Notes under the pieces: model-generated
Database searches by the model: none
What the model saw: the letters and a program-made list of their open reading frames with translations, nothing else
Told to the model about the DNA's origin: nothing
Part shown: piece by piece, positions 8,891 through 53,445 of the stretch
Numbering within the stretch: position 1 is the first letter of the stretch
How the letters are laid out: each line of letters opens with the position of its first letter
NCBI GenBank assembly: GCA_916613615.1
Contig: OU744721.1
Location: 70,685,060-70,749,059, forward strand
DNA: 64,000 nucleotides
Reading direction: 5' to 3'
Source: Steromphala cineraria
Lineage: Eukaryota > Mollusca > Gastropoda > Trochida > Trochidae
Program-made: the position numbers and the translations under genes

Positions 8891-9025
8891 TGAGGGAAAT
8901 GTATCATGAAGGTACTTACAATAGAAAACACCCTTAAATGTCTAAAACAAATATTATTCAGAATATATTTAGAATGATTTAATAGTTTCTTAAATTGAAA
9001 GAATAGACAATTGGTTTGTTGTTAA

Positions 9026-9353: not shown

Positions 9354-9360
9354 TTAATGT

Positions 9361-20259: not shown

Positions 20260-23200
20260 AACAGACGCAAAAGTTATAAAAGACAAATTGATGGATAAGA
20301 GCCTCTTAACGTTATTTCTCATGCATTCTTTTTCTGAAATATTGCCAAAGAGGCGCTAAACAATACATTTATTTATCTCTTGGAACTGAGTTTTCTTACC
20401 GGAAAGGTCAAGCGATAGTCAACATTTTAAAAGTAGTGTTTTTCACAAGTGCTAAAACAGACATCAACTTCTTAATTTATAAACAGAATTTCTGTCTAAA
20501 TGGTATATTTGATGACAGGAGAATCCATGCAACATGCAAATATATGTGAAATTTTATAATTAATTCAAAACTATAAGAAAAGAACAGATGCAAATGAAGT
20601 GAAATCAACAGAAAACAATGCAGGAATTCAAATTTGAGGTATTTTTCTGAATAAATGCAAGAAACATTATTTTTTGTCTTGCATGAAATACTTGCTGTAT
20701 TCTATTTAAAAGAAATGAATGACTGTTATTGATTGTAGTTATAAAAGAGTTAATAGGATAAGTGTCTCGCTAAAAACGTAAAATATACACATTCCTTTCC
20801 TCTGCTCTTTTTTTAAAAAGATTTCAAGTTTGAATGTATTGGGACACTAAGGTAGTTTTTAAAATCGATTTTAACCATCTGGTTTTTTTTCGCGAAGCAA
20901 TAATTAGATCCAATAACTGGATGAGTGCTAGACCCATGATAAAACAGCGTTCTCTTAAGTTTCATGCCTGTTATCAATAATCCCTATGGATTATTTACAA
21001 TGAGACGTAAATGTCTTTTGTTAATGGGAAATTGTTTACATTCTTTCATTTCTAAAGATGTATGACAGTTAACGCAAATATGTATACATTCAACATATAA
21101 CAATATATCGTATGATTATTTGAGTACAGCACCAAAACTAAAAGAAATCAATATCATACAAATTCCTTTGATAATATTTCTGTTTCAAAGCATTACTTTT
21201 GCTTATAGATATAAATAATGCTTATAATATCTATAAAATATATATGCTTATCAATATTTAATGAGCTTCAACAAATATTCAGTTTTGATTTTTTGTGTTG
21301 GTTTCTGTTAATAGAGAGTGATCTTATCAAGCGAAGTACATAAAATTAATTGGGGGAGGGGGGTTGTGAAAGTAAAACTATATATCCTGTATGTCTCACG
21401 TGTTTTACTAACATTGCATCAAGAAATGAAAATATATAGTTTTTATCTGTTTTTTTGTTCTTTTCCGAAATTTAGTTATAGGACTTTTTTATATGTCACT
21501 TTTGAGTTATTGAATAGAGTGAACTCCTCGTATGTGTTAACCATGTCTTCCAGCATATAAAGTAAATAGTGCTTTGAAAATAAATTAACACTTTACTTGG
21601 ATATGTCAATGTATAGTCTTCACAATTAACATTGTTGTGCCCATGAAGGTTCACAAGACTAATTATGTCTGTGACATACCACTCTCTCGAAAGGAGATAA
21701 CTACTGTTCCGCCACTTATCAATATGACCTCAGACATGAATGACTATAGTTAACATGCTACTTAGATAAAAACACCTCAATGACAATAAATAGTCAAGTT
21801 TATGACTCCCTGCTGTTACAAGGTTATCAGTGTTGTTAATGGAAGACATTGCTATCAATAATGAAATCAGTGTTTCTGTCAGCAATGTCAGACCCTGATG
21901 GCGGTAAAGCATCCATTAAAGGATACAAGAGAAAGTGGAATGTACCGAGAAAAAAGATTGCAATCATTTGTTATTTTCCATTACTTTTTATAGACATCAT
22001 TTGTATTACTTTAGCTTTAAGCATAATTCTGATTTATTTCAAGACTAATTCAAACATTTGAGGAGTTTTGCACATTGAGTGGACACTATGCTTTGCTATA
22101 CATCAGCTAAAAATCATTCGACATAACTTAATACTAGTATTACTTTTAGTAGGCAACATACTAACATAGTGTTGACAGCGTCTGTGAAACAGTCAAAAGC
22201 ATTTCTGGCCAATCAGTAAAAATATTATTGATTGAGTTCAAATAGATTTTACATCGTGTGCAGGCAATTACCAATTGTGTCTACAGAACGCTATACATGA
22301 AATCAAACATATATCTGAGAAACTTGTCATATCATTAATAATTAACTAGCATATTTCGTAATCACTCACTGGTTTATAAATAGTTTGTTTGCTGTAATTT
22401 CAGTTTGTTTAAGTGTTGAAGTTAGTCAATATTTGGCATATGCAAAGTGTTTATTAACAATCAGTTGATTGAAAAGGTGGCATAGCTTTTGATTAACCTT
22501 AAAATGATGAAACATGCCTGTTAAATTTAATGATCTAGCTAAATCCTATTATGTATTTATAAGAATAGCTTGAAAGGGGTCATTTTATTGACAGCTCTGA
22601 AAAAAAGGCTGTTATAACCTATCGGCGTTAACAATCGGCTCAAGTTTTTATTTGTTAACTGCAAAATATAATTTAGGTTACCTGTGCTGTTTGTAACAAA
22701 CACAAAGCCAATCATGATGTCTAAACAATCTTACTGAGATTCTTATTTCGGTAAATACATTTACAAGTGTTAACAATCATCAGTTACTATCTGTGAAATA
22801 AATCAGAGGGAATGCTTCATGAAACTACTGATAAATAATCACCCCAGTCGTGTTATGTTGTTCATTTTGATTTTCTACTCTGATTGTAATATCATCGACA
22901 TGACTTTTATAGTGGGATGAAATGTCAACATTTACATGTCAACACAGACGAATTATCATGATTAAATTGTCCCTTTTTGTGATTTCATTTCGTGATAAGC
23001 GAGAATCGTATAACACGTTCTAAGTAATGCATACCAAAGGTTACATGGTATTTTAGATGAAATGTGTTTCTGACATGAACACTGTTGTAGGAATATATGA
23101 CTGGCCTCAGCTAGTTTTAACCAGGAGGAGCCAACTACAGCTTCTTGTATTTCATTCTCTCAACTCCTGTTTATGTTGTGTAATCCATAAATAATATTCA

Positions 23201-25934
23201 GTTCCAACCTAATTGATGTCACGTATGCCATAACGTTGACTGACTTGAATGTCAACATGCCACCAAACTTGTGATAAGATTTCGAAGATGGATGTGAAAA
23301 TAGGCATTGCCAAGAACCATTTTGCAAGGCATCAATTACATCATGATTATTTTAAACAGTAATAAACAAAATTCTTTTGTCTGTGGAAAACCGCCTGAGG
23401 TTTAATAGGCAATGAAGTTTTTGTTTAGCTTTTCAGAACAGGTCTGCAACAAATTGAGTTTGATACTATATAAAATCTTCAAAGGCAAACTTCAAGGTTT
23501 TTATTCTGATATCATATTACTTGAAGGAAAGGGAATATCTATCATCTTTAAAACAGGGGCAAATAATTGGCGTTGTTGAATGTCACAAAGAATAGAAAGT
23601 GACAGTGTGACGCCTTTCGTCTTATGCTGTCTATTTATGATGGATGACTAACACATATTAATAGCTCCATCATATTATTGGTTCCACAATGTTAATTCAA
23701 TTTCATTCTGAAATTTGATTGATTTAAAGTTTTCTGGCATCCTTTGTTCAAAATAAGGTTATACATATATTTTGCAATACATATGAAAACATGAAAAGTT
23801 ATGTTTGTGTGAATTAGTAACACTTCTGAAAATGACTTTAACGGAGTCATGATCTCGTAACCCATATTTAAGAATATTTATTCACAATAAAGTGGATACA
23901 CAAAACCCTCAAAATGTTCTCTTTTTAGGACAAATACTCCAAGTTGAAATGCAAAAATATAAAAACTATCACGAATGGTTATGAACAAAAAGTGCGCCAT
24001 CACATTCATTAATAAGTAAACTATATAATCTTGAATTCCTCTTATCTTCCTGAAACATTGTTGTTGTTTTTTTTCTATTCAGGCTTCCATACAGTCCTAA
24101 AATGATTACGAAACTGCAAAAGGCAAGGATTGATTTGAGTTTTGTCAGGTCGTGCCAACGACTCGCATGAATTTAACATTTCCCCTCTTTTCTGTACGTG
24201 GAAAGTATGGATGATGCAAGGAAAGAACAATGGTCGTTTCAGAATCGTTGACGAAACTGATTATAGGAAGATCTGTTAAGCAAAGTGGTTTAAGATCATA
24301 TCAAGAAAAGTTTTGTCTCTTTGAGTATCTTAACAAATTTCGAATGCTGTTTTCTCATCTGATGTCCTCTTATCTTTATAACTATTAGGTATCCGACAAG
24401 GCTAACTAACCGATAAGTAAACTATATAATCTTGAATTCCTTTTATCTTCATGAAACATTGTTGTTGGTTTTTTTTTCTATTCAGGCTTCCATACAGTCC
24501 TAAAATGATTACGAAACTGCAAAAGGCAAGGATTGATTACATCATTGATACGTATGGATTCATTATCACCGCTGGTAAACTAATGATGGAGATTTATTAT
24601 CCGACTTTTCAGTAGAGAAATTTACTCTTAATGAGGAAAATGGGAACTGTCTTTGATATCACAAAGGCGATGGATTGATGCTCCTTTACTTGGTTTCTCA
24701 TTTGACCAGAGCGTCTGTTCAACTAAGAAAATTGACTCTTGGAGAACTTTACGAGATACTTATTTGCAAAATGTTATGTATAATACAAACTTCGTTTATC
24801 CTTATATATATCTTGGCTCAATGTCTACCATCTGGAGCATAGCTTCAAAGTATTGCTTCAAAATATTTATTGTATTATTATCTTATCTTTTATTTGTATC
24901 ATAGCTTAACCAATGATTAAACGTAATTGAATAAAATCAAATACCATTGATTGAGACGTCAAAAGTGAAAAGCCATCCATAAGATCATGGATAACAAAGT
25001 ATGACACTGCATCGAGGGCAAATCGTCTAACAAAATGGTGCCAAAATTTTTGTTTTGGGGTGAAGAGAATGTTTCACTCATGAACTCAATTTGTTTTCGT
25101 AAATCATGTCCTGATTCCCGATTCTAAAAAGCAATTTTGTTATTTGACATATGACGACACCTTGATTTGTAAACATGTCATATTATTGAACCTTTTAAAA
25201 TTGTACATTTCTTGAAATCAAAATAATTGCACGAAGTCATTTTCATAAAGTAAAATATTGGCCATGAATTCATTTTAACTGTATTCGACATCTAAATCAC
25301 TTTTGAATTTCAATAAATTCATAGTATAACTATCTTACATAGCCATCTAAATGTGGCAGGAATGATTTTGGTTTTGAAAAATTATTTTTATAACGAGTTA
25401 TCTAAATGTCTTTGAAATGCTTGTATATTTTCATAACGTTTGTAAAACTGGCATACGTTTTTCTTGTATATTTGTATATACCATACATGTATTTACATTT
25501 GTTTCCCCATGTCGGTTATCTGGTGATTGAATTTTCACGTAGAAATTGTAATAAGCACTACCAGTTGAAAATATTGACTAAACAAAATGCTTTCAATGCC
25601 ATGTAATACCTGTTATTCCGTTTGATTTTCATAAAACCATTCTATTATCAAATCGTATTTAAGAACGGATATACTAGATATACATTTTATGGCTTGACCT
25701 GCCTTTGTGTCTGACTTGTACATGACTTATGCCAAACATTAGAAAATGTTGAAACTTACACAATAGTAAATCCACCTTGTGGTTAGCATCGAGTGTAGCT
25801 TCAGTTAACTCTCTCGGGAAAGGAAAACTTTACAAGAGATTAGACACTGACCCAAATTCTTCTCTTCTTCAATCCTAACCTAAGCTTGCTTATTGATTTT
25901 TTTGTACTTTGTGTTGTCTGCGAATATTAATGTC
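20260..25934 (+). repeat. Segmental copy A, left part
   Basis: About 5.7 kb alignable to copy B (45,615-50,455) over its first ~3.8 kb and to copy C from about 22,365 on. No conserved reading frame: a minus-strand frame at 21,730-21,912 and a plus-strand frame at 24,653-24,904 have relatives in copies B and C but differ mainly by amino-acid-changing substitutions. A local direct repeat of ~125 bp (about 24,015-24,137 and 24,418-24,540, offset ~403 bp) is absent from copy C. Confidence 0.85.
20890..21030 (+). repeat. Dispersed block R2, copy
   Basis: ATTAGATCCAATAACTGGAT to TTTACAATGAGACGTAAATG. It lies in segmental copy A and is orthologous to 46,400-46,545 in copy B. Confidence 0.6.
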
Positions 25935-25949
25935 ACTGGGTGAAATGAA

Positions 25950-26100
25950 GATATTTATTACCTTTACAAGATATTTATTTTTTTGTAAATATCATCTTTA
26001 CAAGATATTTATTTCTTTGTAAATATCATCTTTAATCCTTTGTAAATTTTTGTAAATATTTGTAAATATTTGTAAATATTTGTAAATATCATCTTTAATC
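25950..26100 (+). repeat. Outer module of left arm: TTTGTAAATAT repeats
   Basis: Short tandem units TTTGTAAATAT and TTTACAAGATATTTATT. The same module, inverted, forms the outer end of the right arm (about 34,577-34,806). Confidence 0.8.
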
Positions 26101-27700
26101 TGTAATGTAGACTTTGAAAGTAAAAAAATTGGTAAATGTTGACTTTGAAAGAAATATTTGATGAAATGTTGACTTTGGATAGAAATAATTTGTGAAAGGA
26201 TGACTTTGGAAAGAAATAATTTGTGAAATGATATCTTTGAAAGAACTAATTTGATGAAATGTTGATTTTGAAAAGAAATTAAGTTGAAATATTGACTTTG
26301 AAAGGTATTAATTTGAAGTAATGTTGGCTTTGGAAATTAATGATTTGATTAAATGTTTACTTTCAAAAGTAATAATTTTATGAAATGATGACTTTGAAGA
26401 GAAACAATTAGTGAAATGATGACTTTGAAAACTAATATGTTGACTTTGAAAAGTGATAATTGGTAAAATGTTGACTTTAAAAAGAAATATTTTGATGAAA
26501 TTTTTACTTTTAATATCAACAATTTCATCAAATGGTAACTTTGAAAAGTACAAATTTTATGAGATGTTGACTTTCAAAAGTGATGATTTCATGAAATGTT
26601 GACTTTGAAAAGAAATACAAGATGAATTTGTTGAGTTTGAAGAGAAATATAATTCTTCGAAATGTTGGCTTTGAAAAGAGATAATTTGTTTAAATGATGA
26701 CTCTGAATAGGAATAATTTGGTGAAATTATGACTTGAAGAGGAATCATTTGATGAAATGATAAATTTGAAGAGAAATAATTAGTGAAATGATGACATTGG
26801 AAACTAATAGGTTGGTGAAATAGTGAAAAAATGCTTTGAAAAGTAATAATTTGATGAAATGTTGAATTTGAAAAGAAATAATTGGTGAAATGATGACTTT
26901 GAAAGGAAAAGATTTGATGAAATAGTGACTTTGAAAAGTGATTATTTTATTAGATGTTTTTGAAACGTGAACATTTTATAAGATGTTGACTTTGAAAAGT
27001 GATGATTTCATGAAATGTTGACTTTGAAAAGAAATACAAGATGAATTTGTTGAGTTTGAAGAGAAATATAATTCTTCGAAATGTTGGCTTTGAAAAGAGA
27101 TAATTTGTTTAAATGATGACTCTGAATAGGAATAATTTGGTGAAATTATGACTTGAAGAGGAATCATTTGATGAAATGATAAATTTGAAGAGAAATAATT
27201 AGTGAAATGATGACATTGGAAACTAATAGGTTGGTGAAAAAGTGAAAAAATGCTTTGAAAAGTAATAATTTGATGAAATGTTGAATTTGAAAAGAAATAA
27301 TTAGTGAAATGATGACTTTGAAAGGAAAAGATTTGATGAAATAGTGACTTTGAAAAGTGATTATTTTATAAGATGTTTACTTTGAAACGTGAACATTTTA
27401 TAAGATGTTGACTTTGAAAAGAAGTAATTTGGTTAAATGATGACTTTGAAGAGGAATAATTTGGTAAAATTATGACTTGAAGAGGAAGAATTAGTGAAAT
27501 GATGACTTTGGGAACTTATACGTTTTGTTAAATGTTGACTTTGGAAAGTAATAATGAATGATATGAGGACTTTGAAAACGTATAAGTTTGGTGAAATAAT
27601 TACTTTGAAAAGTAATAATTTGATGACATTTTGACTTAAAAAAGAAAAGAAATATTTTGTGAAATTTGTGAAATGATGACTTAGAAAAGATATAATTTGA
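26100..27700 (+). repeat. Left-arm tandem array, ~31-36-bp units
   Basis: About 50 diverged units of the form AAATGATGACTTTGAAAAG plus a variable AAATAATTTGATG part. A higher-order period of about 419 bp is visible: 26,560-26,975 is repeated nearly exactly at 26,979-27,395. The short reading frames here, rich in F-K-V-N-I-S or S-F-Q-S-Q-H-F, are translations of the repeat and not genes. Confidence 0.92.
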
Positions 27701-29390
27701 TAATTTCCTTATTTTAACTAATATGAATAACATATACAGTGTTGAAAAATGAAAACAGCTTGTTGGAATGTATTTCCACTCATTAGGTTGTAGCTTAACG
27801 AATACACTTGCTAAATAACTCATTAGTCAAGGTGTTGATTGTCTATTGAGTGACAATGCTGTTACATAATCAGTTCGATGTATTCATTACGCATTTAATG
27901 GGTGTTAATTTTTCAGATGGGATATTAACTTTTAAGGAAAATTTGATAATTTCAAATGTTGACCTTTTGTAAAACATAGACTTATAAAATCCATTGTGTT
28001 GTTGAATGAAGATTTGTAATGGTGATTTCGTTGAAACAATTTTTGATGAAAAATTAATCATGAGATACTGGAAATGTTTACTGTTGTCTTTAGTTTGTGA
28101 AATATTTTCTCATTTTCATAAGAAAAAGAAAAACTAATCACTGATTTGAGGAATCCAAACAGCTTACTAGAAGTTAAATTCCCCTCACTTGTAGGTAGCT
28201 TAACGAATACACCTGTTGGAATATCTCATTAATTAAGATGTTGATTGTAATTGTGTATTGAATGGCAATGCCGTTAGCTCATGCTTGATATGCTTCATGG
28301 TTCAACGCCTGGATCAACTCTCAGCGTAAAAGCCTACCCTAGCACTGTTGGTCACTGTTCATTGGGATCGACCATCTTGTATGCCGGGCAAATGTTGTTT
28401 TATGTATATGGTGCTAATTTTTATGTATACGACATGTCAACATTTGCGTGACACAATAATAAAATAATTAAAAAAATATCTCATTGCAGTTTTTAATTTC
28501 CTGTCGGTGAGGTGTCCATCAATAGTTTATTGACGTTTACATAAACACCTTACACTGCAATAGATCTTTAAAACTTGTTTGAGTGTAAATGTGTTTAAAT
28601 GTTAAACATCATATAACCACAAAGATATGTTGCTATTTTTTTTTGAATATAAGTATGTCTGATTAAATATTTTATAGTGTGTCAAAGGTTGATACTCAAT
28701 TATTTTCAGTTTAGTAACTAAAGCTGTTTTTGAATGCCGACTTGATGGGCAGCTAGATCTGTCTCGCGACAGACCCGTGAATGCATGACTGGTCACACGC
28801 CATTTTTGAGACGTCATATATACAGAATGATTACAACGAGTCCTATACATCTATCTTAACGAGATCACCAAATAAACCCATTCATTAACGATTTTCAGAA
28901 AATGTTAAACACTCAGTTGGAGTAGTCATTTGACGATGTAACACTATTAAGCGTTTGAAGTAATAAAGATATCAACATCACTTGTAAATAAACAATTATT
29001 TAAGGCGGTATTTCAGTTCAATTAATGATGCGCTACTCTATATAGCTAGTCTGTTTATTACGTCACACCCGCGCGAGTTTTATGGCCCCTATCTCAGGTA
29101 GGTTTTTTACAGCCGTTAATTACGCAGTCTTAATAAAAAGCTAATTGAAGGTGTTTATTGGACAAATTGCCAAAAAGCACACCCAGTTCTTATTTAGTTG
29201 AAATATCTTTGAAAGTAAATCGAAAAGTGATCGAGGTTAGCGGTTGTTGCAGTTTTTAATTTCCTGTCGGCAAGGTGTCCATCATTAGTTTCTTGAAAGA
29301 TACATAAAACACCTTATACTGCAATAGATCTTTAAAACTTGTTTTAGTCTAAATGTGTTTAAACGTTAAATATATAGTAGGTATTAGAAA
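27700..29390. repeat. Inner left-arm sequence with paired direct repeats
   Basis: Two pairs of diverged direct repeats. A block beginning AACAGCTT at about 27,753 recurs at about 28,157. A block beginning TGCAGTTTTTAATTTCCTG at about 28,487 recurs at about 29,248, ~125 bp long and ~760 bp apart. No coding sequence was recognised. This part has no visible counterpart in the right arm. Confidence 0.6.
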
Positions 29391-29394
29391 TTGT

Positions 29395-29730
29395 CAATTT
29401 CAATTCAATTCAATTCAATTCAATTCTTTATTAACCTTAAGTTACACAACTTATCGGCGGTTACATAAAGTGATACAAAAAGTGATACAGGTGGACGGTG
29501 ATTGCAGCGTAGATACATATGGAGAATGTACATTGTTATTTTAAGTACTAACTAACTTAGTAGTAACTAATGAATTAAGATGGTAAAGTTGATACGGCGC
29601 CGGATACCCCACCGGATCCTCACCCAGGCATACAGTAAGAGTAGACAATAATGAAAGAATGAAAGGGTTTTCGTCATTTGGTGCATTCTCTACCTGATGT
29701 AGACCTATTGTTAGAAAAACCAAGTATTAA
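29395..29730 (-). mobile_element. Probable retroelement 3' tail ending in (AATTG)n
   Basis: On the minus strand the sequence ends with AATAAAG followed by about five AATTG units (29,395-29,425). This looks like the 3' UTR and microsatellite tail of a LINE- or SINE-type retroposon. No coding sequence was recognised upstream and no target duplication was identified. Confidence 0.4.
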
Positions 29731-29799
29731 ATAGTTAACATGATTTATCTAATGATTTTGAGAAATAGGTTGAATAGGGGAATGATACCACTGCTTCAT

Positions 29800-31560
29800 G
29801 TGTAAAATTTACCAATTCAAATTCAACAATATAATGTTGAGGCCACCTTGTCCCGTCAAAGGGATATCAATGCTCTTAGCATCAATCTAAAGTCTGCTAC
29901 CTGCTCTGACTCCAATACCTGTCTTGTTAAGTTTAACGACATTCAATCAATATATAAGATGATAATACATGAATAAACAAACAATTTAATGTAACTACTT
30001 GACAATCAAGCTTGGAGAGTTTTAATCAATGTTTATCTTGGAGAAGTAAACGCTCAGACAAAGTGAAAATTTGAAATTCTGACTTTCAAATATAATTGAA
30101 TTTGGTGTACGTTATTGGCTCTGAAGCTGTCATATTGTTCAAAGGTTATTTCCAAAGTATAGCCCGTATGAAAAAGGGCTATTTTGAGGGTTTATAACTT
30201 TGATGAAGTGTTTACTTTGAAGTATAGTTTGATGTTGTTGACATGCTAGTTCAGAAAAAAATGTTATTTGTGAACGTTTAATCTATTTTTATTATCTATT
30301 TTTATTATGTAACCAGCGAGTGCAAGTTGAATAGACATCATTGTCTTTCAGTTTGTCTGTATTACAATTGTTGTGATAACTACTTTGTGAACATATTGAT
30401 GATGTATTTTTTAAAGTTCAGCTTCATGGGCAAACGTATTGAGTAATTTTCATTTCATGACTGCATATTTTTGAGAAAAATATTCTCAATGAGACTTTTT
30501 ATTTGCAATGTTTCTGAAAGAAAGTTTACTTTGGATTATTTTATTGTGTGAATATGTAGCGTCAAAAACATTTTGACCCTGATAGACATATTCATTATTG
30601 TGTAAAATCTACCAATTCAAATGTTACCATATACTATTTTAGGCCCCTTCGTCCTGTTCAAGGGCAATCAATGCTATTTGCATCAATCTATCATCTGCTA
30701 CATGCTCTGTTCTACCTTTTTAATCAATTTATACCGTATTTATATGTTAATGTAAATTTACCCTTTTAATGCATAATATTTATGTTTTATAGCACATGTG
30801 CTCTTTTTAACTTTGTATAATAGTCTCTCATAACCTTTTTTAAGGGTGGCTCGTATATTTTTATGTTTTATGCCTTTTTGTATATATGTAAGAGGTGAGA
30901 CTGAATAAACTGTCTGTCTGTCTGTCTGTCTGCTCTGACTCCGATACCCTCCTCGTTAAGTTAAACGACATTCAATTAACAATAATCTCAGATGACTATA
31001 CCTGAATATACAGACACTTAACAAGCAACTACCCGACAATTAAGCTTGGCGAGTTTTCACTAAATGTATATCTTGGATTATAGAGTAACAGTTATCAATC
31101 TATCGTCTGCTACCTGCTCTGACTCCAATACCCTCCTCGCTAAGTTAAACGACATTCAATTAACATAAAGCTCACATGACTATACCTGAATATACAAACA
31201 CTTAACAAGCAAGTACACGACAATTAAGCTTGGCGAGTTTTCACTAAATGTATATCTTGGGGTTTCGAGTAAAAATCAATACTCATACAAAATGAAAATA
31301 TGAGTTCTGACTTTCAAATATATTTGAAATTAGGAAGTTGTTGAGAATGAAGTTGTTATATTGTTCACAAGTGATTTTCAAAGTAGATGCATCATAATTA
31401 TTGGCTATATTGAGAGATGATACTTTTGATGAAATGGTTACTTTGAAATAAAGTTGATGTGGTTGACATGCTAATTTTGAAAAATATCTTGTTATATACG
31501 AATGCTTGTAAATATATCCTAAATCTGTTTACACGTGATGGGCGTGTTCTATATTTCTGG
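29800..31560 (+). repeat. Inner left-arm units, three diverged copies
   Basis: Units of a few hundred bp containing CTGCTACCTGCTCTGACTCC then TTAAACGACATTCAAT and AAGCTTGG(A/C)GAGTTTT occur at about 29,885, 30,680 and 31,095. The second unit is interrupted by a short insertion (30,710-30,930). The same unit occurs inverted in the right arm. Confidence 0.75.
30710..30930 (+). mobile_element. Short retroposed element ending in (CTGT)n
   Basis: 221 bp inserted into one of the inner units. TGCTCTG is present on both sides (30,703-30,709 and 30,931-30,937), whereas the neighbouring units at about 29,900 and 31,113 read through without interruption. The 3' end is AATAAACTGTCTGTCTG, a typical LINE/SINE microsatellite tail. 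The right duplication overlaps the tail phase, so 7 bp is the best estimate. No coding capacity. Confidence 0.6.
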
Positions 31561-32600
31561 TGAGCAAGTCCTGTAACTTTACAGCTTAAACAGATTGACT
31601 TATTGTAGTTATATCTATATCCTTTTGTCCCTGTATGAATTCTGCATATGATGTAAAATATGTATTTTGTATTAGTAATGTCAGATCCGAGATTGTGTGA
31701 GACATTCAACAAAAGATAAAAACAAAATTTTGCTCTAATTGACCTATTGAAATGTTATTGAACCCACAAACATCTTATTAAACCTTTTATGTAGAATGTC
31801 ACATTATTACATACTCAACTTAAAAGGGAACCTTTATGATACATTTTACGTACTTAAATCTCTACTTTGAAAAATAAATTCAGAATGCAAAAACAACATT
31901 CCACCTTCACATGACAGAATAACAGATGCAAAGAGGATATTGTGCAAAAACGCATATATTAAGTAAAAAAAGCAAACTGTGGGCACGGTGTTTCAATGGG
32001 TATTGAACAGGGGTGTGGCTACATGAAGACTTTTGTCCGATGAAAGCATATGCACGTGTTTGTTCTACGATTGCTATGCTTCAATCAGTGTCGTGCATCT
32101 TGAGACAGTGTTATTTCAAGGTCAATCTATTATGATAGTGATTTAATTTTTAGAGCCTGATTAGATATTTATTAGCGGGAGAATCCAACCCGTAGTAAAA
32201 TCTAGATTCGACTTTTATTGATGATTGGTCAAAAGACACTGAATTAATTTGATGACGATGTGGTAAATACATCAAACTACATCACCGAAGTGACCTCATT
32301 GCAATACAAGTAGAAGCGATAAGACAAGAGGTGCTTTCAAGCGACTTATATATGTGAACTTTCTTATTGAGAGATATGTGTCCATCTTTTAGCAATGTAT
32401 AATATTCATTACTTCCATCTTTAGATACGTTTATATCACTGATATCATAAGAACATAAACAACTGCAGTGGATATTTTGAAAGAGTGTCAAAACCTGTCT
32501 ACGCATGCTCCCATAATCAAACATGTTTATTTGTTTGTTTTTTTTCTATGTCATTTTTTGTGTGATCTTCATGGTAATAAACCATTCATTCACTAATCAG
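31560..32600. other. Central segment of the Foldback-like element
   Basis: About 1 kb between the two repetitive arms. The longest frame (32,282-32,524, minus, 80 codons) shows no recognisable domain. The end (32,560-32,595), AATAAACCATTCATTCA, resembles a retroposon 3' tail. Nothing else was recognised. Confidence 0.4.
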
Positions 32601-32649
32601 TATAGCGTATTGTTTAACCGTACACTTACAATGATATACTCAATGAAGG

Positions 32650-33245
32650 ATTATTTTTCATTGGGAATGTTAACTGAATTCGAATATCTTTAAATATATT
32701 CTAAAAACATTAAAAAGAGACAACATACTTTTCATATATATCAAAGTTAACTTTTAAACAACATCAAACTAAACTTCAAACTAAATATTTCATGAAAGTT
32801 ATCATCTCCCAAAATAGCCAAAAATTCAATAATAATTTGATATGAGAATAAATTGAAAATAAACTTTGATCAATTTCAGAATATTTAAGAATTTAAAAAA
32901 AAAAATGAAAGTCGGAATTTCATATTGTCATTCTATATGAGTGTACACTTCTACTCAATGCTCCAAGATAAACATTTATTGAAAACTCGCCAAGTTTAAT
33001 TGTCGGGTAGATGCTTGTAAAGTGTTCGTATATTCAGGTTAGTCATCTGAGATTTATGTGAATTGGATGTAGTTTAACTTAACGAGGAGGGTATTGGCGT
33101 CAGAGCAGGTAGCAGATGATAGATTGATGATTTCTATTTTATGCTCCAAGATAAACATTTATTGAAAACTTGCCAAGTTTATTTGTCGGGTAGTTGCTTT
33201 ATAAATGTTTGTTTATTCAGGTATAGTCTTTGAGATTAATGTTAT
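32650..33245 (-). repeat. Inner right-arm units, inverted
   Basis: Inverted, diverged copies of the left-arm inner units: GTCAGAGCAGGTAGCAGATG at about 33,100 and two copies of GCTCCAAGATAAACATTTAT (32,971 and 33,143). They confirm the mirrored order of modules. Confidence 0.75.
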
Positions 33246-33255
33246 TTCTTTTTAA

Positions 33256-33580
33256 AGGGGCAGTAGCACGTTTTTTAATAATTTCATATTTAAGATATTT
33301 CACTGATAATTGTGAGTTATTGCTAAATGTATTATATTGACAGTGCCAAAAATCTCATTACAAAAGCCAGTCATCCATAGTCAGAGGACAAAGTATGAAG
33401 ATTCATATAAAATCCATTGGCGGCCATTTTTGTGTGAACACCTTTAATTCATTTTGTGTTAGAAAATATCATCGCATGGCTAAACTTTACCTTATACATT
33501 TGAATTATTACTACTTCATTTAGTTTAAATACATTGTTTTTCAATTGTAACCATTAATTTTCATTTTCGTGATGACATTT
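33256..33580 (+). mobile_element. TTAA MITE, 3'-truncated copy
   Basis: Begins after TTAA (33,252-33,255) with AGGGGCAGTAGCACG, as in the other copies. Internal sequence is collinear with the 9.0-, 42.4- and 47.8-kb copies. The right inverted repeat is missing: at about 33,580 the sequence passes directly into the right-arm tandem array. Confidence 0.85.
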
Positions 33581-33584
33581 CACC

Positions 33585-34576
33585 AAACTATTACTTATCA
33601 AAGTAAACATTTCACCATTATTTCTTTTCAAAATCAACATTCCATCAAATTATTAATTTTCAAAGTCAACATTTCATCAAATTATTACATATCAAAGTAA
33701 ACATTTTACCATTATTTCTTTTGAAAGTCAACATTTCAAAAAAAATATTTATTTCAAAGTCACCATTTCATAATTTTTTCTCTTCAAACTCAACATTTCA
33801 TCAACTAATAACTTTTTAAAATCAAACATTTAATCAAATTATTACTTTTATAAGTAAACATTTCACCATTATTTATTTTGAAAGTCAACATTTCAAAAAA
33901 AATATTTATTTCAAAGTCACCATTTCATAATTTTTTTCTCTTCAAACTCAACATTTCATCAACTAATAACTTTTTTAAATCAACATTTCATCAAATTATT
34001 TCTTTTGAAAGTCAACATTTCATCAAATTATTTCTTTTGAAAGTCAACATTTCACCAATTATTTCTTTTCAAAGTCAACACTTCTTCAAACATATCAGTT
34101 TTCAAAGTCAACATTTCACCAAATTATTACTTTTGAAAGTAAACACTTCATCAAATCATTAATTTCCAAAGCCAACATTTCTTCAAATTAATACCTTTCA
34201 AAGTCAATATTTCACCTTAATTCTTTTCAAAATCAACATTTCATCAAATTATTTCTTTCAAAAGGCATCCTTTCATCAAATCATTTCTTTCAAAGTCTAC
34301 ATTTCACAAATCATTTATTTACAAAGTCATCATTCACCAAATTACTTCTTTCAAGGTCAACATTTCATCAAATTATTACTTTTAGAAGTCAACTTTTCAC
34401 CAATTGTTACTTTTCAAAGTCAACATTTTTCAAATTATTACTTTTCAAAGTCAACTTTTCACCAATTGTTACTTTTCAAAGTCAACTTTTCACCAATTGT
34501 TACTTTTCAAAGTCAACATTTTTCAAATTATTTCTTTTCAAAGTCAACATTTTGCCAATTATCACTTTTCAAAGTA
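33585..34576 (-). repeat. Right-arm tandem array, inverted relative to the left array
   Basis: Same unit as the left array but on the opposite strand (TTTTCAAAGTCAACATTTCA). A higher-order repeat of ~156 bp is seen (about 33,709 and 33,865). Frames reading FKVNIS and similar are repeat translations. Confidence 0.92.
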
Positions 34577-34721
34577 AAAAATAATCAAGGTAATAAATAT
34601 CTATTAAAGATGATATTTACAAAACTTTACAAACCTTTACAAACCTTTACAAACATTTACAAAATAATAAACATCTTGTAAATATCATCTTTAATAGATA
34701 TTTATTACCTTGATTATTTTT
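34577..34721. repeat. 46-bp perfect inverted repeat with 53-nt spacer
   Basis: 34,577-34,622 and 34,676-34,721 are exact reverse complements over 46 bp, starting AAAAATAATCAAGGTAATAA. The spacer is a TTTACAAACC tandem run. This lies in the outer module of the right arm of the Foldback-like element and could form a long cruciform or hairpin. Confidence 0.92.
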
Positions 34722-34830
34722 GTAAATAAGTACTTTAATCTTTGTAAATATCTTGTAAATAAGTACTTTACAAGATATTTAATCCTTTGTAAATATCTTG
34801 TAAAGAACTTCTTTTCATGCAGTGCATGTC

Positions 34831-37660
34831 TGTCTAATCATATCACGATGCAAAAAGAACGTTGTGTTTTAACAAGGACATCATATACTCAGTATGTTAT
34901 TAGGTAGTAGATTTCTAATCCAGAACGAATTGCTTGACGTGATATAGTTCTTTTAAGTGCCAGCATGTGAGTTTGAATCTGCTAGAGATAATAAAAGAGA
35001 TAATTTATGTGCTCTTCAAACAGTTAAGCAACAGGTTTATATTAATTCAGAATACTTCTTGAAAACGCACACTAAAGTAGTTGTGTGAAGCTTATGCATA
35101 GGATCAATGGTATACAGATAAAACTCATGTAGAATTATATCACTCATAACATGAAAATGGTTCTAGAGAAATTTGTTATATACATAATAACTCACTTTAA
35201 GATATTTCAAAGACACTGAAATTTTGGACAAATCCAAGCAAATCACTAAGGTATTGCAATATTTTCCTATTTCTTCTTGACAAGTAAAGTAAATTTTCTC
35301 CATGTACTATAAAATGTACAATTTTACAATGGGTGGAATTCCCATAGCTGACTTAACTGTTTGCAAACTTTCATTAACGATTTAATATCTTTTTGCAGTT
35401 TTTGGCTAGAACAACAAGCTACTATTCTGCAATTAAATTGTCTCTCAATTCTAATTCAATATTCTAAAATTACATCTGTGAAAAGATTCAGTTATCAGCA
35501 TTTCACATTTCAATGTATCATCTGGTGTTACATGCCAAAAGACAGTATGCATTTGGAAACATAATAAACGTCCTTCGTTTCCAGTAATTGTGTAATTAGA
35601 AACGATTATAATTTCTAAAAAAAAAGGGGGAGCATGTAATAGTCTCCAGGCTGTAAATATCTGCAATCGGAAAGATTGCGCCATTTTTTGTGTATGTGAT
35701 GTTCATGAGTTTCATGTATATGTGTTTCACAATCTTCTATTTAACAAAAGCATAGCGACGGTTATCTTTAACGTTTTGATTTGGAGGACATTTGCGAATC
35801 AAATTTTAAATGTCAATTTTATCAAGAGATTTGTTTTGTACACAACAAAATTACAAATGATTGAATAACTGGACGTAAAATAGAGAGGGACACCATAAAG
35901 AGAAAAACTTTCTTATATTCTAAATGTAAACGTGTACAACTCTTGAAATAACCATCTTTTGCATCAACTTTAAACGTTTGCAGTACAAAATGAAAATATT
36001 GTTTTAAATATTTTGTTCATACCCATAAGCATTCTTGTATCGCCTGTACTCTTTGGTTCCAATATATAAGTAAGGTAGAGTTTATTTTTTAAATTCATAA
36101 CTGAATCATGCACTCATTTATAACGGTATTTTAAGGACAATATACACGTGTCCTTTAGATTTTTTTGAGTAGTATGTTTTACCTTTAACCTGTCTGGTAT
36201 GTGTATTGCACAAGTTATCTATTCCATTGTGATGAACACAATGACCACAATATTGATAATGAACTATCTTGAAATGTATTTGTATATGGAAATACTTTAA
36301 CTTTTTGTATCAATATAGTCCGGTTACCATAAATCGAAAATTACTACTACTGCAGATACACAATTAAAACCCTGCATTTCAAGAATCATTATTCAAGTAT
36401 TTAAGTGTTAAATACTAGTCATGATGATTTTGAAGTAATTGACATATGTGCTATCTGCTATCCATACGTACTCGGTGTAGTGTTTATATAAAAAATGTAG
36501 TCCTTTGTACTTTCCAGGAAAGCAGTGAAAATACTGAATAATTTGATTGAACCCAACCTAAACCAGAGAAGAAAATATTGATTATAACAGGAAAGCTATA
36601 CATTTATCAACTTTGAAAGTCATGTTATAACACGTATTAGGTTTCTAATTCAGAGTTAATTAGTTTTGAAATATTGCAATCCCATCATATCTTGTTAAGG
36701 CCATACAACAGTACATACGAAAGACAATGTCTACAAAGAAGTGTTTATGTTTTAAAACGACACTTGCTTCTTTCTAACGAAAGAAAAATTATATCACTCT
36801 GTCGTTGATAAAGGTAATAAAATGTTCTAGGTTTACAGAGTAGATGGCAGATCAATAATAAACATAGTATAACATAAATAATAGTGAACTACTTCTTGGA
36901 TTAGTGTTTTGAACGGTCATTAATAGATAAAATATATCAATCATTCCTTGGATTTCTAAAAATACTAAGTGCTAGAAGCCCTGGATATACTGTAAAAATT
37001 ATAATTACAACAAAAGATCAATAACGATTAGCATATTGTTAAATCACTTCATTTGCATTACTTTAAATGTTTAATCTAGAACTTAATTTGTTGTTTAATG
37101 TTTTTCGAGAATGCATAATTCAGGACAAAAAAAAACTAACATCCCATCCTATCACATCTTGTTGGCATATATGTTCATAGCTTATTCTCAGTAATAGGCC
37201 TTAGTAATAGTCTGATACTTTGAAACACATATCTCTTTCACACAATGAGGTACGGAAAATGTGATCCCACCTCAACAAAGGATATAAGGTAAAATGAGAA
37301 TTTGATTCAAATGATACATGTAAAGGCCAATTTCCGACAAGTACGAATTTAGCTGTGTGATGATAAATGATTGATTTCCTTGTTAATAAAACCTAATCCT
37401 CATTTGTAGTATATTGAACGGAAATAATAATCTGTTTCAATCAAGCAATCAATCATACATTCCATATATCTTTCATATGTGCTCCAATGTTATGAAATAG
37501 GTTCTCGTTGCTGATAGAGTTTATCTCAATGTTCACTTGTTTTATTGATTTGGTAGAGCATCCTTAAATTTACGGCTAAATGCCGCCATAGTCTGTGAGT
37601 AATGTCACGCTCAATAAAATTAATTCAACAGATCTGATATACTTGGCTCTTTGTGCTCGC
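34831..37660 (+). repeat. Segmental copy A, right part
   Basis: Resumes after the Foldback-like insertion and aligns to copy C from 61,421 to the window end. Relative to C it has an extra ~270 bp at about 36,945-37,215 and lacks ~150 bp present in C near 62,775-62,925. No gene recognised. Confidence 0.85.
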
Positions 37661-38910
37661 ATTGGGGAATGTATTCAATTCAATTTGTGTGATCTCTGAT
37701 CTTTATCTGGTCTACATGGAGACGGAATTTAAAAGTTAAGCTTCTGAATATGAGACAGGGGCTGAATTAAACATAAGCAGTAAACTGTGATTGAATAAAC
37801 TAAAGTGAAAAACATTGCGAAATAATAGAATTGCCAAATTATAATGTCAACAGGATATTTGACATAAATCAGGAAACATAGAAAAATAAGATACCAATTT
37901 CAAATAGATTAAGGCGAAATTGTTTTCAAAATACATACAACTTACAAAAACCGAAGAATTGATTTAATTTAGACGAAATTGTTGCAGGTTTTGCTTCATA
38001 TGAAATATGAAAGTGTCATCACTGTCTCTCTGGGTGTAATGTGTCATAGTTGTCCTGAATTGACAAAACATATGTTAAAGAAGTTTAAATACGTGTTCTA
38101 AGTATCCATTATGAAATGAGGAAAGAAAACTATTAAAATGGTTGTAACAGTTAACATGTCATGAAACGCGCTAGTCCTTAATTTTCCTTTTATCCTACAA
38201 TATCTAAGTTGTCACACACTTTGAACAGATGGTGAGAATCAAGTGACTTTGCCATTGGTGTCAAAGAAGTCAAAAGTGTCAATCGATAAGAGGGTTCTTA
38301 ATCCCATATAAATTTCATCAATGTTTGAAAAATGATAATGACTGTTAAAGATGCATGTAATAGTCAATTTCCATGTACAAGAGCATATTCCATTTTAAAC
38401 AGTACTACTCTGAAAGTTTTCATTTGTGTTTGAATGATTGTGCAACTCCCATGTGTAATGAATGTCTGCTGGCAAAGAGTCAGGTATGACCACTAAAAGC
38501 ATTGTTTGTGAATGTCTGACCTATTTTTCAACTGAGGCAAATCAACGTGGTCATTCTACCTGTTTCACATTCCATCATATGTGACAACTCCTGCTTTATC
38601 TTTGGCAAAGATAAATCACTAGAGTGATTTCTATTGATTCTGTGATGCAAAATGATTCACAATGAGTATGTGTGACAGATTAATGGCAAGATTTTTCTTA
38701 ACCAAACATTTTGTACAGTATAGAGTTGTGATGGAAAGGGTTCGGAGTTCCTTTTTTTACCGTTGATATTACACAAAAATAGGTATTGTTTATCAGTACA
38801 GCACTATCAATGGTTTCTAATTTATGTCCCTTGACAGGTTTCAGTGCGTTGTTAAGTACTTTGGTTATTATCGCTGAAATAATTATATGAATCTATAACA
38901 TACAACCCTT
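37660..38910. other. No gene or named repeat recognised
   Basis: AT-rich with no frame of note on either strand, between segmental copy A and the 38.9-kb MITE. Confidence 0.5.
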
Positions 38911-38913
38911 TAA

Positions 38914-39245
38914 AGAGGCAGTAGCACGTTTTAGGTGGAGTATAACGGGTTGTCAGAAAAATGAAAATAAATGGTTTCAATTGAAAAACAATGTATTAAA
39001 ACTAAATGAAGCAGAAATAAATGAAATATTTAATGTAAAGTTCCTGTTTCTAACACACAATGATTTAAAGGAATTCACATAAAATGGCAGCTAATGGACT
39101 TTATGTGAAATCTCATAACTTGTTCTCGACTATAGACTATAGATTTTTGACACTATCAAAACAATACATTTAACATTAGCGTACAATCATTATCAGTGAA
39201 AAATTGAGAAATATTAAATTTCAAAAAATATGTGCTACTGCCCCT
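38914..39245 (-). mobile_element. TTAA MITE, inverted copy
   Basis: Same family in the opposite orientation. TTAA at 38,910-38,913; left end AGAGGCAGTAGCACG, right end TGTGCTACTGCCCC. The right flank reads TTGATT, so the second TTAA has decayed. It abuts a LINE fragment that starts within a few bases of its right end. Confidence 0.88.
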
Positions 39246-39248
39246 TGA

Positions 39249-40084: not shown

Positions 40085-41060
40085 TAGAGCCATTGGCTCT
40101 GTAGCTCATCAGGCTTCATCATCAATTATGCTGTAGAGTGTGGTCAATGTGATTCCCCCTTTGTAGAGGCCACAGGGTCACCATTCATAAAATTCAGTAT
40201 ATATAGGGGACAAGTTTCAGTTTTCTAGGCGTTTACGTCTGATGCAGAAGATGAAAATAGATTTGAAGGACGTTCCTGTTGCCTTTATTAGGGGCAACAG
40301 GGTCACCAAAGCTACAATTCATAATCATCACTAGTCAAGGAGTCTGTACACAAAGTTTCAGCTTTCTAGGCCTTATACTTCTGGAGAAGAAGATGAAACT
40401 AGGTTTTTAGGGCGTGGCCCCTGTGGCCCTTATAAGGGGTCACAGGGCAACCAAAGCTACAATTTATAATCCTCACTAGCCAAGGAGTCTGTACACAAGG
40501 TTTCAGCTTTCTGGGCCTCATGCTTCTGGAGAAAAAGATGAAAATAGGTTTTTAGGGCGTGGCCAATGTGGCCCTTATTAGGGGCCACAGGGCCACTTAA
40601 GCTACAATTTATAATCCTCACTAGTCAAGGAGTCTGTACACAAGGCTTCAGCTTTCTAGGACTTATGCTTCTGGAGAAGAAGATGAAAATAGGTTTTAAG
40701 GGCGTGGCCCCTGTGGCCCTCATTAGGGGCCACAGGGCCACCAAAGCTACAATTTTTAATCCTCACTAGTCAAGGAGTCTGTACACAAGGTTTCAGCATT
40801 CTAGGCCTTATGCTTCTGGAGAAGAGGATGAAAATAGGTTTTTAGGGCGTGGCCCCTGTGGCCCTCATTAGGGGCCACAGGGCCACCAAAGCTACAATTT
40901 TTAATCTTCACTAGTCAAGGAGTCTGTACACCAAGTTTCAACTTTCTAGGCCTTATGGTTCTGGAGAAGAAATCGAAATTCCACAAAGTTTACGGACGGA
41001 CGCCAGACACCATGCCATGCCATAAGCCCATCGGGCCTTACAGGCCAGATGAGCTAAAAA
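40085..41060 (-). repeat. Dispersed AGCTCATCTGGCC repeat, copy 2 (inverted)
   Basis: Reverse orientation relative to copy 1. It holds about five tandem units of ~145 bp, marked by CACTAGTCAAGGAGTCTG at 40,328, 40,472 (one mismatch), 40,617, 40,762 and 40,907. Ends are GAGCCATTGGCTC and CCAGATGAGCT. The 67-codon frame at 40,566-40,769 is a repeat translation. Confidence 0.88.
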
Positions 41061-42113: not shown

Positions 42114-42406
42114 AGCAATTACTGAATATTCCAAAAGTAATAAAGCTCCAAGCAAAATTATTCCTCGACAAGTTAAAGTTATCAGTTCATGTATGGCATC
42201 ACGACGTCCATTATACTACAGGTCAGTGCGTGTAATTCTATTAATATCAGACAAAATGTAAGCTGTCAATGTTTTGCCTAGGGTGAAGAAGGTACTAAAT
42301 ATCTGAAAGCAATTTCCTTTTTTGAATGATTTTCCGATCTTATCAAAAGTGCAATATAATCGTAAAAGTAATTGCAGCATTAAATAAAAACACATTTAAC
42401 TTTTAA

Positions 42407-42769
42407 AGGAGCAGTAACACGTTTTTTTGATAATTTCGAATTTCAATTTGTTCACTGATAATTGAAACTTAATGTTAAATGTATTATTTTGGTAGTGGCA
42501 CAAATCTCTTTACACAAGCCAATAATCCATAGTCCGAGGACAAAGTATGAAGATTCACATAAAATCCATTGGCGGCCATTTTGTGTGAAGACATTTACTT
42601 CATTTTGTGTAAGAAAAAGTAATCGCATAGCTAAACTTTACGTCATATATTTGAATTATTACTGCTCTATTTAGTTTAAATACACATACATGGTCTTTCA
42701 TTTGGAAACATTAATTTTCATTTGACTGACATCGCCTTATATTCCCCTTTAAAACGTGCTACTGCCCCT
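42407..42769 (+). mobile_element. TTAA MITE, complete copy (363 bp)
   Basis: TTAA at 42,403-42,406 and 42,770-42,773. Ends AGGAGCAGTAACACG and CGTGCTACTGCCCCT. Internal sequence is collinear with the other copies. A 70-codon plus-strand frame inside it (42,462-42,674) is not conserved as coding. Confidence 0.9.
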
Positions 42770-42773
42770 TTAA

Positions 42774-45614
42774 AATGTATCCTATCACTTGTTGATAATA
42801 GTTTAAGACACCTTTAAATCTGAGAATAATTACACTAAGAATGATGTTTAATGAGTGACTATTAACTATTGATCGATAAATTGATTTTTCAGTGAAGTAT
42901 TTAACATTATCTTATAAATACATCATAAAACTTTATAATGTATTAACTATTCAGAGTTTATCTTAAAAATATTTCTTATTTTATCATTTCTTGTCCATTA
43001 GAAAGATTGTCATTATTTGAATAGATGGTAATCAATGATAAGTTTGTATTGTTTCACAATTACAGTTGGGCTGCATCACAGCGACAAACTTTGCTAGTTA
43101 AGCCTAGTAAAGCTTAATAACCTTGCGGTATTTAATAGGCACATTCATTAAACCCTCAAATATTGAAATCAAATTTAGTGACTCCCTAAGCACGTTTAGT
43201 TGGACAATTGTATTGGCTTATTAAGCTCCACTTTTTACAAAGTTTTCCTTTATGAGCAGAAAACCATATATATTTTATTTTTCTGAAAGGCAAACGAAAA
43301 TGGCCTTAGATTTTCAGGTAACTTTGGCTCTGAACAAATTATATAATAAAGGATGAACATTCAAAGCATTGTTCTGGTTTTCATTGTTTACTACTCACAT
43401 TTTAGTTATCAGTGACAAATCATCTTGGCTTCAACCACATAGTTTCAGTTTTAAGTTCCACTGGGTATTGTAGGGTTTTGAATGATTTGATAGATAGCTG
43501 AGATTTAGATTTCACAGCTTAGATGCTTTAAATTCAACCTGTTAATTCAAAGGTTAAACAAAGATGCAACCGGAGCAAATCATTATTTATATTTAACCAG
43601 TTTCAATTAGTTTGAAATGCCATGATTGCAAGTATTAACCCAGAAGTGTCATTATTGAAAATAGGTGTCAGAGCATGCTAACAGTGAAGGCTGAATAAAG
43701 AATAAATGTAAGTAGGAATAATTATATAAGGTGTTGGTTTCTTCAGAATATATGATCAAGTGTGCAGTTTCAAACCATGGATATCTCTGAATCCTTATTA
43801 TTTACATATTGAGATATCAATAATCAACTGAGATTTGAAATTCATGCTGAATATTTTTTCTTTGTTGTTTGATGTAAATAAAACCTGACATGAATGCAGT
43901 AACTAACCCCCAAATCGATCGCCCCTCTTTCCTGTCAGTGACAGCAATGGAATTTTCGAGTTTAGTTAAATCATCCTGGGTGCCTAAAAAGCCATTGACG
44001 TGCCCTCATACTTAAGACTACAATTTTTTCCTTCATTCAAAGATTTTCCCCAGTGTATGCAGAGGCTTTGTTGTCGTTTTGAATTCAGTAAAATACCATC
44101 CAGTCTTTACACAGCCTTGTTGTCGTTTTGAATTCAGTAAAATACCATCCAGTCTTTACACATGACAATATTTCATCACAAACATTTACATACTTGTCTG
44201 ATGATTCATAAAATTTCAAGTTCCTGATTTTTCAGAAATGTAAAAAAGAAAAAGTATATATTTACATGTATGTATCCACCAATTTTCATACTATCACCCC
44301 GTCCTCTTTCATTAACCGATTCTCCAGACAGAATTGGGAGGTGTTTGAACAGCCTTTGGGAATTTTGTAAAAACGTCATTGAATCTTGATGTTTGATGCA
44401 GAAAAATATTCAATCAGATACTTTTGCGTATTTTTCAATGTTATATCACCTTTGTCGAATTTTAAGCATTAGACATCTTTCCAAACAATATCCAGCCCTT
44501 TTTCTGTCATTTCTGTCAAAAGTAATTGTGCAAGAAACTAACAAAGACTTTGCTCAGCTGGTAAATATGGATGTGAATACGACAGTTTAAAAGACAGTTA
44601 AAACACACTCTGAATATGCATGTCTTCATGAAGAATCTCTTGACTTTTAAATGCAAGTGAAAATGAATAGTATCTGGAATAATTTTTGGGACAATCTGCA
44701 TTTTGTTTGATTTTATGACATATTTCGCTGCCAATTGAAAATGCAAAACGTCTTTTGAATTTATCTGACTGGCTAAATAAGATATGAGATTTAACAATTT
44801 AAATGAAGTGTGCAATATATACAATGTAAGCTCACTTTCACAGGTAAGGAAAAAAAGAGCATTGATTGTTTGTAGGCATGTTCACCTTGTGTCATTATTT
44901 TTTATACTAAGTGATACTGATAGTTGATGAAATTATCAAATAAGAAAAAGGACGATTTGAATAGCAAGATGTAAATCATGTAGTTCTTAAAGCCTAGATA
45001 CCATATTTGTTTTTGAATGAAATACTAATTTTTTCCCTTGAAAATGCTTTTTATTTATTTCATTTATTATTCATAAAACTCATCTAAATCAAATGGTATT
45101 CAGATCTTTACATCTTTACTAAATAGATGTATGTCTTGACAAATACATACCTTAATTCAATTCACAATATCCATTATTCTTGTCAGGAAAGTTTAGAATA
45201 ACATATCGAGAGTTGAATTAAATAACTGATGTAAATTGATAGATGTAAGCTTATTTGGGGAGAAATCAATGTGTTTTTACAGACACCTCATTGATTTGAG
45301 CGGGTGTACTTGTTTTCTCAATTGGCCGGATTCCTATTCATACAAGTTAATTGGTCTATCGGATATATATTGTAGGAAACAACATTATAACCATAATGTA
45401 CCCCTTATCTCTAGAGGAGTTTTTAAGATGTTGAGCAATGTTACATAATGATGTACTTTTAAATGAAACAATTTATCAGAAGTTATTTTCTATAATTGTA
45501 ATTGCCATTATTATTTGTTGTTTTACTTATTACTAAATAGAGATGACAGTTTTTATATGATCTGCAATTTTAAATGTTAAAAGGGTAAATAACTACGTTT
45601 ATTTAAATAGGACA
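42774..45614. other. No gene recognised
   Basis: AT-rich. It contains the 49-bp tandem duplication and short frames (65-102 codons) without domains. Confidence 0.5.
44066..44162 (+). repeat. 49-bp tandem duplication
   Basis: A unit containing TTGTTGTCGTTTTGAATTCA starts at 44,068 and again at 44,117, with nearly identical copies. Confidence 0.92.
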
Positions 45615-46399
45615 GTAAAAACACAAAAGTTATAAAAGACAAATTAAATAATATCAGCTTCCTTACTTTGTTTCTCATGCATTTTATTTTATGAAATATA
45701 AAGAGGCCCTACAAAAAGTTATTTATACATCACAACATCTCTTGCAACTAACATTTTTCACCCGAAGGGTCAAGGGATAAACAGTCAACATATTAAAAGT
45801 AGTTTTTTTTCACAAGTACTGAAAGAGGCATCAACTTCTGCATCTTGCATGAAATACTTTGCTGTATTCTATTTAAAAGAAATGAATGACTGTTATTGAT
45901 TGTAAAGAGTTAAAGGGATAAGCATATCGCTAAAAAAACTAACATGGACACGTTCCTTTCGTCTGCTGTGTTTTAAAAAAGATTTCAAGTTTGAATGTAT
46001 TGAGACACTAAGATAGTTTTTAAAATCTATCTTAACCATCTTCATTTTTGTTAAGGAGTGACGTCTTTGGTAATAATCTTAATGTTTTAGGGATTATGAA
46101 ATGAAGGTTAGAACATTCCATGTCAGCGTAACCAGACTCTAGTCAAATTTACCGAGCGACAATGACATGTAAACTAGTTCTAATGGACGTTTCAGAAAAT
46201 AATAACTGCTCAGTGACCTTGACCCTAAACTCATGTCACTAAGGCTACACAGACTATTTCAATGAGACGTAGATGTCTTTTGTAATTGGGAAATCCAGGT
46301 GACACCTAAACTGTAAAAGTAGAGAAGGATTTTTTTATGTCCAGTATATTGGTAAAACGTTTCGAGTCCCTCAGTGACACAAAGACAAGTATAGTTGTA

Positions 46400-46545
46400 A
46401 AAGGAAGCAATCATTAGATCCAATAACTTGAGTGAGCGCTAGACCCATGATAAAACATTACTTTCACTAGTTTCATGCCTGTTATCAATAATCCCTATGG
46501 ACTGTTTACAATGAGACGTTAATGTCTTTTGTTAATGGGAAATTA
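46400..46545 (+). repeat. Dispersed block R2, copy
   Basis: Copy-B counterpart of 20,890-21,030. A partial copy of the right half (CAATGAGACGTAGATGTC) lies just upstream at about 46,258. Confidence 0.6.
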
Positions 46546-48173: not shown

Positions 48174-48238
48174 TTAAATGAGGAAAATGCCTGTTACATT
48201 CAATGATCTAGCTAAATCCTATTATGTATTTATAAGAA

Positions 48239-53424: not shown

Positions 53425-53445
53425 TTTTTTTTTTTTTTAAATGTT

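Follow-up and report, generated by a model that had tools for sequence, protein, structure and literature searches.

Foldback-type elements such as FB and the sea-urchin TU elements carry long inverted arms of tandem repeats and lack evident coding capacity. Subterminal repeats and mirrored tandem zones are described in sections of PMC8978399 for CACTA transposons of plants; mirrored repeats thus have precedent within the CACTA type. CMC elements are found across molluscs, and part of PMC10294476 gives two CMC entries among the curated autonomous consensus sequences for bivalves. We analysed a 64-kb window (contig C2, 70685060-70749059) of the grey topshell Steromphala cineraria (assembly GCA_916613615.1), in which an element with mirrored tandem-repeat arms lies within a duplicated segment. 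An initial annotation of this window had proposed a single mobile element of Foldback-like architecture with an identifiable empty site, built as FB, Galileo and TU are. The single element and its empty site were borne out. The kinship was not, since 3-bp duplications were found outside CACTG...CAGTG in 40 of 40 copies other than that of the window, and the element is very probably a non-autonomous cut-and-paste DNA transposon of CACTA/EnSpm type.

Self-comparison of the window showed that the insert splits one copy of the duplicated segment and that the paralogue keeps the unoccupied site. The left flank (25400-25934) aligned with 60897-61421 at 90.4% identity and the right flank (34826-35400) with 61417-61994 at 91.8%. 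Both matches stopped at the element, at 25934 and 34826, and converged at 61417-61421 in the paralogue, where the junction was clean. The wider duplication is partly collinear (20642-25933 and 34827-37620 against 45806-64000, in pieces 79-94% identical), and the element is present in one copy only. The positions at the insertion are as follows.

25934-34824, plus strand: whole element, 8,891 bp, CACTG...CAGTG, with limits taken from the empty site and the genome copies
25931-25933, no strand: left target-site duplication TGT, by the 3-bp rule of the 40 other copies; the empty site has one TGT
34825-34826, no strand: extra bases CA, absent from the 40 other copies examined
34827-34829, no strand: right target-site duplication TGT, from the window copy compared with other copies
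61418-61420, no strand: single TGT of the unoccupied paralogous site, from self-comparison and reading of the junction

The window copy reads AATGT[CACTG...CAGTG]CATGTC and the empty site AATGTCTGTC. Ends had been annotated at 25,935 and 34,825; the termini are real, and the element extends from 25934 to 34824, because all 20 copies retrieved from the genome start at the same base and all carry a C before the former first base 25935. The pentamer ATGTC, noted earlier on both sides, is literally there but is not the target duplication. Under the rule of the other copies the duplication of the window copy is best read as TGT with a surplus CA, which may come from a small insertion or an imprecise cut at the right end. 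A 5-bp duplication may be read from the window copy taken alone; it fails for the family. A Transib- or RAG-like origin, with a 5-bp duplication and CAC termini, was entertained from the same single copy and was abandoned, as the C at 25934 belongs to the element and the duplication was 3 bp elsewhere.

The 40 copies comprised all nine two-ended copies among the 20 retrieved, 30 of 30 further pairs (the first 30 of 40 that were listed by genome position once the copies already read had been set aside) and the one copy of 17.9 kb that was read. All pairs were located by exact 17-mers at both ends, and therefore old copies are under-represented. The CACTG ends together with a 3-bp duplication that varied in sequence place the family in the CACTA/EnSpm superfamily and not with FB, Galileo or Mutator; subterminal repeats, another mark of CACTA/EnSpm, were present as well. 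A 3-bp duplication is not exclusive to CACTA elements. PIF/Harbinger elements make a 3-bp TWA duplication, with TTA or TAA preferred by Harbinger, and the P superfamily including Galileo makes one of 7-8 bp. Among other CMC branches Chapaev makes a duplication of 4 bp and Mirage one of 2 bp, while Helitrons and Helentrons leave none. The footprint might have been left by a different superfamily that makes 3-bp duplications (PIF/Harbinger, for example) or by another CMC branch. We consider this very unlikely, as TTA or TAA made up only 3 of the 40 duplications, CACTG termini do not suit PIF/Harbinger, and neither 4 nor 2 bp agrees with 3 bp. The length found in the 40 copies also disagrees with P superfamily elements, and the presence of duplications disagrees with Helitrons and Helentrons.

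The long inverted arms of tandem repeats do have the Foldback shape, and a true Foldback-type element (of the FB, Galileo, Tetris or TU kind) from the Mutator or P superfamily, moved by such a transposase, would account for them. Internally repetitive inverted arms, variable arrays and the lack of evident coding are shared with Tetris and Galileo, as far as described in sections of PMC4079207 and PMC3688188. However, the termini here are CACTG, and none of the 40 copies had the 8-10-bp duplication of Mutator and Foldback elements that part of PMC4079207 gives for Tetris, which makes such an origin highly improbable. Foldback is a fair name for the shape of the element and not for its kinship, and the CACTA/EnSpm assignment is the one followed below.

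To determine the distribution of the family we searched the genome (1,270,125,005 bases in 281 contigs). With 25935-26135 as query, the best 40 of 416 candidates were scored and all 40 were full-length matches at 95-100% identity. Of the 39 scored copies other than that of the window, 20 were retrieved, at 10 kb each, of which 11 were incomplete at the right; they came from the scored copies, so the sample leans towards young ones. The exact left-end 17-mer CACTGGGTGAAATGAAG occurred at 168 places in the genome and the exact right-end 17-mer CACTGCATGAAAAGAAG at 150, whereas the reversed controls gave none. When up to 3 mismatches were allowed, the 29-base left terminus occurred at 194 places (control, 0). 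Pairing of ends was limited to the nine contigs complete for both ends (C1-C7, C32, C35). There an inverted right end lay within 40 kb of 75 of the 95 left ends, against a mean of 0.275 and a maximum of 3 in 200 trials of random placement in which the sizes of two contigs were rounded guesses. Paired elements were 6,164-21,506 bp long (median 10,778). The pairing of inverted ends far above chance indicates that both boundaries belong to one element. Two elements at C7:36628640-36666878, of 12,195 and 12,196 bp, face each other with their left ends about 14 kb apart; they could represent an inverted duplication.

The arms consist largely of tandem repeats, and two satellite arrays might have come to lie inversely in one paralogue by chance, with no mobile element involved. 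The recurrence and pairing of the termini across the genome, the empty site and the target duplications leave this next to no chance. In addition, a 311-base query from the right array gave 187 matches from the best 40 of 622 candidates; of the 44 best (99-100% identity) 33 were checkable, and all 33 lay beside an exact right terminus. Both genome-wide checks proposed at the outset, for shared termini and for arrays occurring as independent satellites, thus agreed with a single element.

The element has the following internal organization.

25934-26103, plus strand: left terminal domain, beginning with the left-end 17-mer, followed by 34-bp and 10-bp repeats with TTTGTAAA motifs
26104-27701, plus strand: left array of about 50 units of ~32 bp, including a 419-bp higher-order repeat of 2.4 copies
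27742-28276, plus strand: two inner direct repeats in the left arm, at 27742-27864 and at 28146-28276 (73%)
29790-31493, plus strand: inner units of the 183-185-bp type in the left arm, broken at 30710-30930 by a stretch with a terminal CTGT-type tail
31494-32733, plus strand: central domain, mostly non-repeated, with no long open frame
32734-33247, minus strand: inverted inner units of the right arm, shortened relative to the 7.6-unit 183-bp array of the retrieved copy L048
33248-33572, plus strand: repeat resembling a miniature inverted-repeat transposable element (MITE), carried by the family and truncated in the window copy
33575-34578, minus strand: right array of about 31-34 units of ~32 bp
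34577-34721, no strand: perfect inverted repeat with 46-bp arms at 34577-34622 and at 34676-34721, containing inverted copies of terminal sequence
34722-34824, minus strand: right terminal domain ending CTTCTTTTCATGCAGTG, from the junction and genome copies

The two arrays share the same roughly 32-bp unit and lie in inverse orientation, with a best alignment of 73.5% over 1,134 columns. The mirrored arms of the initial annotation were therefore confirmed. Mirroring extends to the inner units (29880-31493 against 33247-32734), which had been given as about 400 bp and resolved into steps of 183-185 bp. Both ends carry mirrored TTTGTAAA/TTTACAAA motifs at 10-bp spacing, and within the window TTTGTAAATAT and its complement are confined to the element ends. 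Positions 30709 and 30931 adjoin in 12 of the 20 retrieved copies, so the interruption between them is peculiar to the window copy or a few copies. A 247-base strand holding most of the 46-bp inverted repeat folded 12 standard deviations below shuffled sequence, and the arms of this repeat had 0-1 mismatches in all 10 complete copies. The MITE-like repeat stood beside the right array in the same 10 of 10, and copy L040 has a second one. Five copies of this repeat, which is ~370 bp long and has inverted ends GGGGCAGTAGCACG, lie in the window (9015-9368, 33245-33567, 38899-39246 on the minus strand, 42396-42779 and 47811-48178).

Array lengths vary among copies. Array matches at 565-566-bp steps were seen at C4:20815258-20816699, which lies beside a right end, and at C38:58427678-58428554; they suggest that the right array of some copies grew by whole segments. 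Two other arrays in the window, of a 145-bp unit (13489-13951 and 40212-40971), are oppositely oriented and about 81-89% alike. Judged from its flanks, copy L048 apparently inserted inside a unit of this type.

Mean pairwise divergence was 1.8% in three blocks of the interior, for which 12, 20 and 12 of the 21 copies could be used after dropping those in which the block was absent or less than 90% covered; one of these blocks, 31494-32160, was compared among 12 copies. The left terminal domain diverged by 1.0% on average in all 21 copies. The duplicated flanks, in comparison with the 1.8% of the inner blocks, differ by about 8-10%. From these distances the family appears to be young and to have spread through the genome recently. 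The right arm of the window copy shares 98.8% identity with that of L048, whereas within a single element the left arm and the right arm share only about 73%, which indicates that the arms diverged before the spread and were inherited as a pair. Seven left ends with the exact 17-mer, outside the perfect 29-base matches listed, were read individually. Over 300 bases four of them shared 89-96% identity with the window copy; the other three matched over only 67-179 bases, a MITE-like repeat beginning at that point in one of them; older or altered members of the family exist. Segments of 735 bp and 233 bp are missing from the window copy and L048; among the 19 other retrieved copies the former was found, whole or in part, in 18 and the latter in 11.

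The longest open frame in the interior of the window copy does not exceed 118 amino acids, and the open frames within the arrays are of low complexity and reach 172 amino acids. No transposase-like frame was seen in the 20 retrieved copies, of which 11 lacked a complete right side; their longer frames were parts resembling long interspersed nuclear elements (LINEs) by eye, or low-complexity array frames. Adjoining open stretches of 187 and 167 amino acids, made of short FPLSFNVLVYCR-type repeats, lie at about 1183-2247 (minus strand) of L037, in or beyond a partial element copy. Elsewhere in the genome the CACTA transposase family PF02992 gave 60 matches, 59 above the curated cut-off and many in open frames of more than 400 amino acids, with none in a control of 14 genomes. 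A common 419-amino-acid frame holds 19 of the 60, and two of these compared were 99.5% identical over 6.6 kb; this group is possibly a young autonomous family. A second frame, of 448 amino acids, lies 3.7 kb downstream in the same group (L118, L119, L122 and L123 on C1).

Genes for CACTA transposases are present elsewhere in the genome and none was seen in the retrieved copies. We infer that the enzyme is supplied in trans, and mobilisation by a CACTA transposase seems probable. Such a transposase would recognise the CACTG termini along with the repeats that adjoin them on the inner side, draw both ends together and excise the element, and reinsertion would follow by a 3-bp staggered cut. The kilobase arrays may provide additional platforms for binding or pairing and may have grown through slippage or unequal exchange. 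Given the 32-bp period, about three helical turns, and the 10-bp spacing of the terminal motifs, the sites would share one helix face.

Several observations weigh against the CACTA assignment or the mechanism built on it. The window copy has two extra bases, and the reading of its duplication depends on the rule drawn from other copies. In the nine contigs, 20 of the 95 left and 9 of the 84 right ends had no partner. None of the 38 PF02992 matches (of 60) on contigs with listed right ends lay within 60 kb of such an end, a check that would miss elements whose right end has changed. Two groups of transposases were read in part and showed no terminus like that of the element, the ends of one group not having been reached; the homologous segment of the second has a CACTAC-type edge, on the right side only. 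The arrays give weak ground for a binding-site role. By an unbiased conservation count the putative core of the 32-bp unit exceeded the rest by 2.4 points (left) and 2.7 points (right) in the window copy and by 4-5 points in the right arrays of three other copies, an overall range of only 2.4-4.8 points; there was no excess in the left arrays of those three, whose spans included some non-array sequence. A conserved core had been suggested by an anchor-biased count and was rejected, the unbiased count giving a small excess at most.

Ten short frames, most from the duplicated segments, gave one Pfam match, below the cut-off, and no family above it. An L1-like LINE occupies 53727-59006 (minus strand), with an endonuclease and reverse transcriptase frame at 55306-57426 whose relatives, 120 listed of 381, are 39-49% identical. 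Its zf-RVT-like frame (53727-55016) fell below the Pfam cut-off and its ORF1-like frame (58128-59006) had no Pfam match. Among viral contigs, 22 stretches shared a 17-mer with the element and showed no wider likeness to it, and a 35-mer search gave none. Searches of plasmids and of Rfam gave no match.

The topshell family is a non-autonomous CACTA family with Foldback-like architecture, a variation on a known type. It had been suggested that the family may be undescribed, and we found no account of it in the open-access literature, a search that left Repbase and Dfam outside. The 3-bp duplications in all 40 copies place a Foldback-shaped element in CACTA, which supports convergence of shape. 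The youth of the copies and the many intact ends make it possible to test what long repetitive arms do, by relating arm length to copy success and by asking which copies are also present in the second haplotype, which has been deposited. It is conceivable, though we hold it doubtful, that a Foldback architecture arose independently in an animal CACTA lineage, the mirrored arrays serving as a working multi-site platform with a one-ended 46-bp hairpin, through which a gene-less 10-kb element outcompetes its autonomous relatives, and that the element is perhaps still moving in Steromphala cineraria. An element of this build may be broken up in repeat libraries and entered partly under 'satellites' and partly under 'unknown'.

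With CACTA/EnSpm elements of plants, fungi and animals the family shares CACT(A/G) termini, 3-bp duplications and subterminal repeats. It differs in its mirrored arrays of 1.0-1.6 kb built from a single 32-bp unit and followed by mirrored 183-bp units, and no transposase was seen in the retrieved copies. From the plant elements covered in sections of PMC8978399 it differs in scale, in having a single 32-bp unit and in its animal host. Foldback elements (FB, Galileo, Tetris and TU) have similar long inverted tandem-repeat arms without evident coding, as parts of PMC4079207 (Tetris) and PMC3688188 (arms of Galileo) indicate, whereas the topshell element has CACTG termini, arms only about 73% identical within an element, and a duplication of 3 bp against the 8-10 bp given for Tetris in part of PMC4079207. 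Satellite-bearing Helitrons and Helentrons of oysters, as described in sections of PMC11136912, likewise disperse tandem arrays on molluscan elements; their arrays are central, whereas those of the topshell are subterminal and mirrored and are accompanied by terminal inverted repeats and target-site duplications.

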